Source: Methanocella paludicola SANAE (lineage in GTDB: Archaea > Halobacteriota > Methanocellia > Methanocellales > Methanocellaceae). From it: 64,000 nt of DNA. Under the pieces are notes generated by a model that did no database searches, was not told the DNA's origin, and saw nothing but the letters and a program-made list of their open reading frames with translations. This document shows positions 3,417 to 47,114 of this stretch, piece by piece. The translations under genes were made by a program, and so were the position numbers. The stretch covers positions 1,289,437 through 1,353,436 of the forward strand of contig NC_013665.1 in NCBI RefSeq assembly GCF_000011005.1, given 5' to 3'. Within the stretch, counting starts at the first letter, position 1, and each line of letters begins with the position of its first letter.

Positions 3417-3730
3417 CCTTCCGGTCGGTAACACGAAACCACGAAAGACTTTTTATATCCCACGTAAAGCCCAAAATCACCAAGCTCATGCCTGGTGTTT
3501 AAAACACAAAACAACCTCTCGAAGGCGCCAAAACACTAATGATCTAAAGCGCGAGAACGGCATGCTCTTATCCAGTAAATTATGCTTTCTCTCGAGTTTT
3601 AAACTTTTTGAGCAGTTCGTGCTTTCGGGAGGTTGTTTCGTGTTTTAAACGCTAAAGCATGTTCCTTCGTGCTTTCGAGCCTTACGTGGGATATAAAAAA
3701 ATTAGTGGTTTCGTGTTACCGACCGGAAGG
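3417..3730. repeat. Long imperfect palindrome P1 (314 bp)
   Basis: The first 26 bases, beginning CCTTCCGGTCGGTAACAC, are matched exactly by the reverse complement of the last 26. The pairing resumes inward through TTTTTATATCCCACGTAA and again through GTTTAAAACACRAAACAACC, so the arms can pair over most of their length with mismatches increasing toward the centre. Short units like CACGAAA and CACGAAG recur in both arms. The element fills the gap between the BofA-like gene and polB, and no gene is visible in it. Transcribed from either side it would fold into one very long hairpin. Confidence 0.85.
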
Positions 3731-26277: not shown

Positions 26278-26434
26278 TGACTGTACTACCTTGAGGGAAT
26301 TCACTCGTGCGATGAACTATACTCATACGTTGATACATATCTTATAAATCTTTTGTAATATAAGTTTAAAGTAGTTCCCGGGGTCTGGCTGTTAGCCTGG
26401 CAGGCAATCGCTTTGAAAATTTTTATATTTTTGA

Positions 26435-26851
26435 TTCTTCCGCGGTTTTGGGATGAATGTTTTTTTTATTCTTTTCTAGTTATGCCGTCGTTGAGTGGTC
26501 CAACCACAGGGGCACGGAGCGCACGGGAGTTACACAGAGTTTTCTTATAAAGGGAGACTCAGAGAGCTCAGAGGCCGGTTTATTAGTTAGCCTGGGACAC
26601 AGAGTTTATTGAGGCTCGGTTGACCAATAAACAATAATGCGGTTTATCCTCGGCAGTGCCTCTTTCAACTCCGTGCCCCGGGAATGTTATAAACCCGTAC
26701 TCCGTGGCCTCTGGGCCTCCATTTATAAGAAAACTCCGTGAAACTCAGCGCTCTCCGTGCCCCTGTGGTTGGACCACTCAACGACGGCATAACATAAAAA
26801 CGAGCGAAGGCATCCGCCAAAGCAATATATCATCCCAAAAACGCACAAGAA
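26435..26851. repeat. Long imperfect palindrome P2 (315-bp core, 417 bp with outer arms)
   Basis: The core 26479-26793 starts GTTATGCCGTCGTTGAGTGG and ends with its near-exact complement CGACGGCATAAC; inward pairing continues through CCAACCACAGGGGCACGGAG and TTTTCTTATAAA. A further outer pair, TTTTGGGATGA at about 26444 and its complement CATCCCAAAA at 26831, extends the palindrome. The left flank TTCTTCCGCGGTTTTGG recurs in altered form at 45245, before the related palindrome there. No gene is visible in 26278-26909. Confidence 0.85.
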
Positions 26852-26909
26852 CCATATTTTAATGTTTAACTATAATGTGAGATATGCCTTGCTCCCGGGC
26901 CTTTGAGAA

Positions 26910-27713: not shown

Positions 27714-27844
27714 CCAGCACAATATAGTAGCCCGAAGCAATATAATCTTTTATCCGCGCCCACTGGAAATCTTTGCATGCATTAGTTGAGTGATTATATT
27801 AGTTGCGCTTACCTGTTTATCGTCTTACATTGTACTGCCCTGTT

Positions 27845-28171
27845 TTTTAAGGCACTGAGCGTACAGAGGCACTATTTTCACCACAATGGCACGGAGCACG
27901 CTGAGTTTCACAAAGACTTTTTTAAATGTAAGTCACTAAGGCCGCAGAGATGGCTTTTTGGGTTATTAGGGCACGAAGGGGACAATGACACGATGGCAAA
28001 AAGTGTTCGCATGTTCATTTCATTGTGCCATTGTATCCTTTGTGCCCTATCGCCAATGAACCGGGCTTTGTGGCCTCTGTCCCTCACATTTAAAAAAAGT
28101 CTTAGTGAGCCTTTGTGAACTCCGTGCCATTGTGGTGAGAATAGTGCCTCCGTCAGCTTAGTGACTTAAAA
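27845..28171. repeat. Long imperfect palindrome P3 (327 bp)
   Basis: The left end TTTTAAGGCACTGAGC pairs with the right end GCTTAGTGACTTAAAA. Pairing continues over CAGAGGCACTATT, CCACAATGGCACGGAG, TTTTTTAAATGT, the CACTAAGGC region and the near-centre AGGGCACGAAGG, so it runs almost to the midpoint near 28005. Within each arm 9-base units of the type GGCACGAAG recur. A second copy, about 90 per cent alike by eye, lies at 45385-46985 split by an insertion sequence. The gap 27714-28229 holds no gene; open frames in it are not coding-like. Confidence 0.9.
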
Positions 28172-45234: not shown

Positions 45235-45399
45235 ATTTTTTTTATTCTTCCGCAGTTTGGGTTGAAATTTTTTTTCTATCCCTTCGCTGTATGCCGTCTG
45301 GGCGTGTCCTCAACCACAGGGGCCAGTAGTTCCGTGCTTACTCCAGATTTGTTGCATGCTTATTGCCTTATCTAGAATAGTCTATTTTAAGTCACTAAG

Positions 45400-45435
45400 T
45401 GGATTGCTCCCGTTTTTGTGGACAGGTAGTTAAGG
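45400..45435 (+). repeat. Left terminal inverted repeat of the IS
   Basis: Thirty-six bases beginning TGGATTGCTCCC and ending AGTTAAGG; about three quarters of them match the reverse complement of the right end. Confidence 0.85.
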
Positions 45436-45460
45436 CACATCTGCTTAGAGGTGTGTGTTG

Positions 45461-45784
45461 ATGGGTAAGATGGAGCGGCGGAGGTTTTCGCGGGAGTTTA
45501 AGCTTCAGGTGTTGCGGGAGCTTGAGAGTTGTAAGAGTGTGGCAGAGGTGTGTCGGGAACATGATCTCACACGGTTCCTTGTCGCGAGGTGGAAGCGGGA
45601 GCATGGGAAGGATCCTGACGCGTTTCAGGGTAAGGGTAAGTGTAAGGCTCGCGTGGATGAGAATCGGACGAGGGAGTTGGAGAGGCTGGTTGGCCAGTTG
45701 TATGCGGAGAATGATTTTTTAAAAAGAGCGTTGGCCAACATGAAGAAACGTGCGGAAGAAGATCGAGGGAGAGATCGTATATGA
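45461..45784 (+). CDS. IS3-family transposase OrfA (HTH protein)
   Basis: A 107-residue DNA-binding protein. Residues 5-55 (RRRFSREFKLQVLREL... SVAEVCREHDLTRFLVARWKREH) form the HTH_Tnp_1 helix-turn-helix that recognises the IS ends. A leucine-zipper-like tail follows (LERLVGQLYAENDFLKRAL) for dimerisation. The ATG at 45461 lies after GTGTGTGTTG. Its stop overlaps the OrfB start as ATGA. In many IS3 elements the two frames are joined by a -1 frameshift; here simple coupling by overlap seems enough. Confidence 0.9.
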   Translation: MGKMERRRFSREFKLQVLRELESCKSVAEVCREHDLTRFLVARWKREHGKDPDAFQGKGKCKARVDENRTRELERLVGQLYAENDFLKRALANMKKRAEEDRGRDRI

Positions 45785-46644
45785 GCGTACTGGAATGTCG
45801 TGGTAGTCTTCCGGTATCGAGGGCTGTGGAATTGATGGGGGTCAGCAGGAGTGGGTATTACCGGTGGCTGCATGCCCGAAGCAGGGTGAAGCCATGTAGG
45901 CCTGATTTGTTGCTCAGGGAGGAGATCCAGCGTATCGCCCTCGATTACCCGAGGTATGGGTACAGGCGTGTGGGGGTGGAACTCGTCCGTCGAGGGCATC
46001 GGGCAGGCCTGAAAAGGGTGTACGAGCTGATGAAACAGGATAATCTGCTCTGCGTGAGAAGACGGTACAGGCATTGTACTACTGACTCTAACCATAGCAT
46101 GCGGGTGTACGAGAATCTGGCCAAGGGCATGAGGATCTCCGGTATTAACCAGTTGTGGGTGGCCGATATCACGTACATCCAGTTATCCAGGGAATACGTG
46201 TACCTGGCCGTAGTGATAGACGTGTACAGCAGACGGTGCCTGGGCTGGATGCTCAGCCGTAACATTGACACTCGGCTGACGCTGGGAGCATTGCATAATG
46301 CACTGGAGACCAGGAGGACGGAGTTAGGCGGCCTGGTTCATCATAGCGATCAGGGAGTCCAGTACGCCTCTAAGGAGTACGTGGAATGCCTCCTTGAGCA
46401 CGGTATCCGGGTTAGCATGAGCAGGCGTGGCAATCCGTATGATAACGCGTTCGCCGAGAGCTTCATGAAGACCCTGAAGTACGAGGAGGTATACCTGAAC
46501 GAGTACGAGACGTTCAAGGATGCAATGGAGAACATCGAACGGTTCATCGACGAAGTGTACAACCAGAAACGATTACACTCGTCGATAGGATACAGATCGC
46601 CAATCGAATACGAGAAAACATTAAATATGAATGTTGTGGCTTAA
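45781..46644 (+). CDS. IS3-family transposase OrfB (DDE integrase core)
   Basis: A 287-residue transposase catalytic protein. An N-terminal HTH_21 region (about 40-95; RIALDYPRYGYRRVGVELVRRG) precedes the rve core. The catalytic triad is D129 in WVADITYI, D190 in HHSDQGVQY and E226 in AFAESFMKTLK, with the 35-residue D-E spacing of the DD(35)E class, and the downstream Lys. The tail YNQKRLHSSIGYRSPIEYE is typical. No stop or frameshift is seen. It begins by an ATGA overlap with orfA. Confidence 0.93.
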   Translation: MSVLECRGSLPVSRAVELMGVSRSGYYRWLHARSRVKPCRPDLLLREEIQRIALDYPRYGYRRVGVELVRRGHRAGLKRVYELMKQDNLLCVRRRYRHCTTDSNHSMRVYENLAKGMRISGINQLWVADITYIQLSREYVYLAVVIDVYSRRCLGWMLSRNIDTRLTLGALHNALETRRTELGGLVHHSDQGVQYASKEYVECLLEHGIRVSMSRRGNPYDNAFAESFMKTLKYEEVYLNEYETFKDAMENIERFIDEVYNQKRLHSSIGYRSPIEYEKTLNMNVVA

Positions 46645-46674
46645 CTAATTGTCTACTTTTATGGAAGCACTCCA
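46639..46674 (-). repeat. Right terminal inverted repeat of the IS
   Basis: Reverse complement begins TGGAGTGCTTCC and ends AGTTAAGC, matching the left end. The orfB stop codon (46642-46644) lies inside it. Confidence 0.85.
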
Positions 46675-47114
46675 AAGCGTACAGAGGCACTATTTTTACC
46701 ACAATGGCACTAAGCTCACTGAGTTTCACAAAGCTTTCTTTTAAATGTAAGTCACTAAGGCCACAGAGATGGCTTTTTGGGTCAAGAGGCACAAAGGGGA
46801 CAATGACACGATGACAAAAAGTTCTCTTGTTCATTCCGTTGTGCCATTGTTTCCTTTGTGCCCTAAAGACAATGAACCGGTCTTTGTGACCTCTGTCCCT
46901 TACATTTAAAAAAATCTTAGTGAGCCTTCGTGAACTCTGTGCCATTGTGGTGAGAATAGTGCCTCCGTCAGCTTAGTGCCTTAAACAAAAGCAAACGCTA
47001 ATAATACTAACACGAAACTACTGGCCCCTGTAATTGAGGACACGCCCAGACGGCATTATGGGAAAGAGGGAATTCGAATCAGCTAAAGGCATATGATAAA
47101 AATTTTACAAAAAG

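Follow-up and report, generated by a model that had tools for sequence, protein, structure and literature searches.

The nested palindrome analysed here lies in a 64,000-nucleotide stretch of the Methanocella paludicola SANAE genome (hereafter the window; the genome is a single contig of 2,957,635 bp, PMC3146512). On balance we favour the view that two dispersed palindromic elements have become joined in it as a hybrid, into which an IS3-family insertion sequence later inserted, and that the arms of such palindromes together with a GxxExxY nuclease gene form one unit. Judged by sequence comparison, neither palindrome of the nest carries a gene, but both belong to families in which the less common, long members encode a predicted GxxExxY nuclease.

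The preliminary description had read the nest as an outer palindrome with 46-bp complementary arms that took up an inner palindrome and, last of all, an IS. The arms at 45291-45336 and 47011-47056 do pair across 46 nt, at 93%, but the true outer arms are only 33 bp long and correspond to the outermost portion of a family A arm pair. When the left outer arm is compared with A copies genome-wide, the alignment stops at 45323, and other extended B copies begin at 45324; on the right, the A/B boundary lies at about 47023/47024. B copies at two unrelated sites (L010 and L020) carry the whole unit 45324-47023, minus the IS, including its ends CAGTAGTTCCGTG/CACGAAACTACTG. Because L010 and L020 share these ends and other A copies match only to 45323, the final 13 bp of each supposed outer arm are part of the inner unit, and outer arms of 46 bp were rejected. 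The inner element also includes non-palindromic tails on either side of its P3-like core.

The likeness of the inner element to P3 is borne out by 89.8% identity over 315 bp and, given ~25 P3-type copies genome-wide, the match is not due to chance. It is likewise correct that an IS cuts this element, occupying 45400-46674 with AAG on either side. Its removal regains continuity, but P3 is not restored exactly as had been stated: the rejoined TTTTAAGTCACTAAGCGTACAGAGG differs at two bases from TTTTAAGGCACTGAGCGTACAGAGG in P3. The IS does have inverted ends, but they are imperfect, with ~25 of the first 36 bases matching.

In an intact A palindrome (window 26482-26790), the outer arm pieces are separated by an interior of ~245 bp, of which the nest retains nothing. 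The A/B junction falls within ACCACA..GGC, a motif common to A and B, and no target duplication was found framing the inner unit at 45323/47024. The reading in which B inserted into an intact A was rejected on account of the missing interior and the lack of a duplication. Because the A interior is gone and the junction lies inside a motif of both families, the nest looks like a hybrid of A and B rather than a clean insertion; its structure would be explained no less well by recombination or template switching at the shared motif than by B inserting into intact A. Thus, the proposed order of events stands as far as the IS came last, but arrival of the outer palindrome before the inner one is unsupported. 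A known structured RNA was also considered and rejected, there being no Rfam match within the window at gathering thresholds.

Table 1. Features of the nest and of related palindromes, in window coordinates.
Feature	Position	Strand	Evidence or remark
Degenerate left flank, resembles left end of A-type MITE (TTCTTCCGCAGTTTGGGTTGA...)	45244..45290	.	76-82% to A flanks of L064, L065, L066; cf. window 26432-26480
Left outer arm, family A (ATGCCGTCTGGGCGTGTCCTCAACCACAGGGGC)	45291..45323	+	A matches end at 45323; complementary to 47024-47056
Inner unit, extended family B element including IS	45324..47023	.	Alignment with L010, L020
First 15 bp of B palindrome core, severed by IS (TTTTAAGTCACTAAG)	45385..45399	+	
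AAG target duplication, left copy	45397..45399	+	Right copy 46675-46677
IS3-family insertion sequence, 1275 bp	45400..46674	+	NF033516, rve, HTH_Tnp_1
IS orfA (HTH_Tnp_1)	45455..45784	+	
IS orfB, DDE integrase core (rve)	45781..46644	+	NF033516, 315 bits
Remainder of B palindrome core, ending ...GCTTAGTGCCTTAAA	46675..46986	+	90% identity to P3
Right outer arm, family A (GCCCCTGTAATTGAGGACACGCCCAGACGGCAT)	47024..47056	+	
P2, recent A-type MITE with intact A palindrome and terminal inverted repeats	26434..26855	+	TSD ATATTTT
P3, B-type palindrome, gene-less	27844..28171	+	
P1, further palindrome family (C)	3417..3730	.	Related copy adjoins IS3 fragment L188

Family A, to which P2 and the outer arms belong, has ~45 copies in the genome and family B (P3 and the inner unit) ~25, both numbers being approximate and taken from BLAST-type searches; full-length B copies are 84-92% identical, and elements of these families are ~200-430 bp long. 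In 20 recent copies, the ends of A lie outside the palindrome, as inverted GACTCTTCCGCGG../GGTTCTTGTGCG.. sequences, and the terminal inverted repeats GACTCTTCCGCGGTTTTGGGATGA / GGTTCTTGTGCGTTTTTGGGATGA are found at 59 ends genome-wide compared to 0-1 control matches. AT-rich target duplications of 7-8 bp, mostly 8 bp directly at both ends, accompany 17 of the 20 copies when at least 6 bp are demanded, a length that 38 of 380 mismatched flank pairs (10%) also reach. By its terminal inverted repeats and target-site duplication, family A classifies as a MITE. A search of the genome for the terminal pattern gave no autonomous parent with A termini; end pairs occur at MITE spacing, and the only widely spaced pair belongs to a MITE that an IS has split (L083).

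No target duplications were seen for family B or for a further family, D, built of CGCGAAG units. The B core nevertheless has the same ends, TTTTAAG..CACTAAG and CTTAGTG..CTTAAAA, in copies at more than 20 unrelated sites, which contradicts an inner palindrome without fixed ends. Family D includes solo palindromes with a short loop as well as ~10 copies whose loop is occupied by an A-type palindrome (L250-L258 and L260; for example C1 1671000-1671740, 644350-645110 and 2516000-2516800), and in L250 the A MITE within the D loop is framed by an exact 8-bp duplication, TAATTAAT. Palindrome-in-palindrome arrangements therefore recur in this genome, and the solo D palindromes are the empty sites of the A-filled copies. 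These filled loops and the A target duplications support the earlier suggestion that long palindromes are discrete mobile units. Taken with the fixed B ends, they refute an origin of all copies through duplication of large stretches of the chromosome. As an origin of the nest itself, such duplication is extremely improbable: extended flanks are common to only three B copies and lend it no support, flank similarity ends at defined points, the copies are scattered over the chromosome, and target duplications are present.

The IS in the nest is identified as an IS3-family element by two ORFs, a DDE (rve) orfB, inverted ends that start from TG and a 3-bp duplication. A genome search with this element as the query recovered three full copies and one fragment, those outside the nest being located at C1:204227, C1:1927946 and, for the fragment, C1:2507940. 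All four are located in palindromes: one full copy (L187) is inside an A palindrome with the duplication GAG, another (L186) is at the end of a hairpin with 31-bp arms with the duplication TGG, and the fragment (L188) adjoins a P1-type arm. As palindromes make up ~1% of the genome (a rough estimate from copy numbers times lengths), this looks like targeting of palindromes by the IS3-family element. REP sequences are IS targets as well (PMC1525189); the likeness is that the IS3-family element is found here only in palindromes, and the difference is that the target consists of long CACNNAG-type palindromes, including their ends.

Other transposable elements have also entered these families. A 1.27-kb element at L024:1689-2958 (C1:2350260-2351531) splits a B palindrome at its centre and has an ORF of 386 aa that by eye resembles an IS256-type transposase; it was rejected as the parent of the A MITE, as its ends are unlike the MITE ends. 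Three A palindromes (L082, L083 and L231, at C1:1730435, 1217105 and 1168266) are interrupted by a transposase element, which has DDE_Tnp_1 in L082 and a similar sequence in the other two; these were located via the palindromes, so that their count is biased.

Two A copies with a wide loop contain an ORF for a GxxExxY/PDDEXK_3 protein. M. paludicola has exactly six genes for such Cas4-like proteins, and all six lie between palindrome arms: three in family A, one in B and two in D. The two gene-bearing D units lie at unrelated sites and share 98.8% identity across 641 bp. No target duplication was seen for gene-bearing units, and the gene-bearing A copies are without MITE ends.

The loop genes score 140 bits against TIGR04256 (GxxExxY; cut-off 35) and 135 bits against PF13366 (PDDEXK_3; cut-off 22), and are full members of these families. 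Residues G31, G33, L34, L35, E36, Y39, E40, Q57, D76, E86, K88, Q100, N117, F118 and R129 do not vary among 49 proteins, and the PD-(D/E)XK residues D...ExK...QxxxY are intact in the loop genes, whose product is thus a predicted PD-(D/E)XK nuclease. A structure model (pLDDT 95.2) has the alpha-beta-beta-beta-alpha-beta core of this fold and comes nearest, among solved structures, to Cas4 SSO0001 and lambda exonuclease, with a modest E of 0.0035-0.04; no close sequence relative with a solved structure was found. The protein resembles Cas4 and solo-Cas4 (PMC5704561) in its fold and its QxxxY PD-(D/E)XK active site. It differs in being shorter, in its weak profile similarity (no Cas4 family profile of Pfam or NCBIfam above cut-off, and PADLOC Cas4 only at E 0.0005 or worse) and in the lack of any CRISPR context in an unsystematic inspection; the solo-Cas4 survey does not mention palindromes or hairpins (PMC5704561). 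For TIGR04256/PF13366 proteins we could not find a description of placement in a palindromic element, or of any link to palindromes, in openly licensed papers, to which the search (including one for the arm text 'cacagagacacagag') was limited; the pairing thus appears undescribed.

The same arrangement is found in other lineages. In three other Methanocellia genomes, most GxxExxY genes are inside long palindromes of different sequence, with arm scores of 59-400; for two genes of this group (L196 and L204) no palindrome arms were detectable. Across many phyla, we compiled 80 GTDB loci, 74 of them with full flanks. The best alignment of inverted arms around the gene has a median score of 35, compared to 21 for both mismatched loci and other positions in the same loci (99th percentiles 40.6 and 31.9). 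Palindrome arms are seen around the gene in most of the 74 loci, bacterial and archaeal, about a third of them scoring within the control range; the arm sequences are ACCACAGAGACACAGAG, ACCACGAAGGCGCGAAGG, CGCAAAGGCGCAAAG and similar. On mobile replicons the genes are rare, with 8 matches in 72,556 plasmid records and none in 50,697 phages, too few to supply empty sites for comparison.

The arms consist of arrayed short units, CACNNAG-like in M. paludicola, whose orientation in one arm is opposite to that in the other, and the periodicity is 8-10 bp whatever the motif. Among B copies, the C, A, C, A and G of the unit are conserved at 0.92-1.0 and the two n positions at 0.73-0.78; the spacers between units are also variable, unlike the near-invariant unit positions. 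Only 4 of the 69 pairs in B have a double compensatory change and most never vary, so that co-variation was rejected as a sign that an RNA or DNA fold is under selection. The near-invariance of the fixed letters of CACNNAG, compared to variable N positions and spacers, points to recognition of the units rather than maintenance of an RNA fold.

For 49 loci with clear arms, we compared arm 5-mers with protein identity in cross-phylum pairs. Arm similarity tracks protein identity (rho 0.214), a value reached in 0 of 1000 permutations, whether within phylum or within GC quintile, and flanks of equal length 600-1000 bp away gave no significant excess of correlation with the protein. A first version of this test on raw 200-bp flanks was discarded due to confounding by composition, as distant flanks correlated equally. 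The protein tree, from 127 columns and poorly resolved, is scrambled relative to phyla. Given these data, we believe that arms and nuclease are very probably linked functionally.

These results bear on the reading of the nest as an ordinary stack of MITE and IS, in which DDE transposases move the palindromes and the GxxExxY genes are chance passengers. Family A does resemble MITEs in its terminal inverted repeats, its 8-bp duplications, its lack of a gene and its many recent copies, and IS elements are plentiful in these palindromes. However, a passenger would not be expected between the arms of several unrelated palindrome families in several phyla, nor would arm sequence be expected to follow the protein. 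The system also departs from MITEs in that B and D lack target duplications, that no transposase-bearing element with A termini was found in the genome, that the body of the A MITE is itself a palindrome, and that gene-bearing A palindromes have no MITE ends. We therefore regard chance passengers as quite unlikely. Since A spreads in the manner of an ordinary MITE and the MITE ends are missing from its gene-bearing copies, the spread of A does not need the nuclease.

Sites shared between related genomes bring in another explanation, namely that the palindromes are resident structures with a cellular role, such as a terminator, an attenuator or a mark for replication or the nucleoid, which the nuclease processes or maintains; they would stay put, with gene conversion among the copies renewing their sequence. 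Of seven Flavobacterium genomes compared at one site, which lies upstream of an rpoN-like gene, three have GxxExxY and four lack it. The gene-less intergenic regions (~81-135 bp) hold hairpins of mutually different sequence, that of G008 being a weak one, which could mean turnover in place rather than insertion. The hairpins at this site in L217-L220 (G005-G008) consist of quasi-repeats that differ by species, for example GTTTCAAGTTTCAGG or AGTTGCAGAGTGGCAAAG. In four betaproteobacteria (L147, L159, L163 and L165), the same two neighbour genes enclose GxxExxY genes that differ in clade and in their arms. Both cases would fit either replacement in place or favoured sites that receive such genes repeatedly. 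GxxExxY genes are also often co-directional within operons (41 of 65, compared to 23 of 50 control triples), which is suggestive only. In Sphingomonas parapaucimobilis (L209:2026-4190), the gene sits between fabD and fabG of a fatty-acid operon. A resident role is nonetheless unlikely in our view: near-identical D units occupy unrelated sites, more than 20 B copies with decayed tails are found at unrelated places, the protein tree is scrambled relative to phyla, and compensatory changes are rare. The near-identical D pair and the presence or absence of the gene in Flavobacterium would instead argue for movement of the gene-bearing unit.

The closest known parallel is the REPtron, in which REP palindromes are dispersed between genes and accompanied by a cognate single-domain nuclease, TnpA-REP or RAYT (PMC8266576, PMC2817692). 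The two are alike in their dispersed palindromes, a co-varying cognate small nuclease, many non-autonomous copies and targeting by IS (PMC1525189). This shared logic would favour mobilisation of the nest palindromes by a Y1 HUH transposase, which we consider highly improbable and rejected for this genome: PF01797 (Y1_Tnp) has 0 matches in M. paludicola, with 5 control genomes positive, so that a REP/RAYT system is excluded there. In addition, REP palindromes are 20-40 bp long (PMC3733652), compared to ~200-430 bp here, making those described here roughly ten times longer; they are tandem unit arrays with the gene inside the palindrome, and the enzyme is a Cas4-like PD-(D/E)XK protein and not an HUH Y1 one. 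Most likely, the palindrome and nuclease form an element that is analogous to REP/TnpA-REP but unrelated to it.

Returning to the unit of arms and nuclease, we suggest the following sequence of events. Starting from the oppositely oriented unit arrays, the nuclease would recognise its own type of arm, whether the units are in duplex form or extruded as a hairpin, as the co-variation suggests. It might then nick or cut at the arms, and break repair or template switching might copy the unit, with or without its gene, into other AT-rich sites, either between genes or in loops; this would produce hybrids, nests and many copies that lack the gene. A derivative, A, would have become a MITE with the 8-bp target duplications observed, presumably spread by a DDE transposase; and IS elements land in the palindromes. 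That the nuclease drives the spread of palindromes is a tentative proposal, to which we give somewhat less than an even chance. Against the unit of arms and nuclease as a whole speak the near-absence of the genes from plasmids and the lack of matches in phages, some genes without arms, and gene-bearing units without a target duplication. We speculate, with similar reserve, that there is a very widespread class of prokaryotic mobile element in which inverted, lineage-specific arrays of short units enclose a Cas4-like GxxExxY nuclease that recognises the arms and spreads coding and gene-less copies.

The GxxExxY family is widely annotated without a function, and CACAGAG-type long intergenic palindromes adjoin its genes in genomes of many phyla; the pairing gives both a testable role. 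The nests of M. paludicola provide solo, filled and hybrid copies, and with them clean material for reconstructing the order of events. If the proposal is true, these elements would be a second, unrelated solution to the problem solved by REP sequences and their transposase, that of spreading palindromes alongside replication and repair, with a Cas4-like nuclease that prefers repeated DNA units; their solo copies would then be a common source of the long CACAGAG, CACGAAG and GCAAAGG hairpins in environmental bacterial and archaeal genomes.
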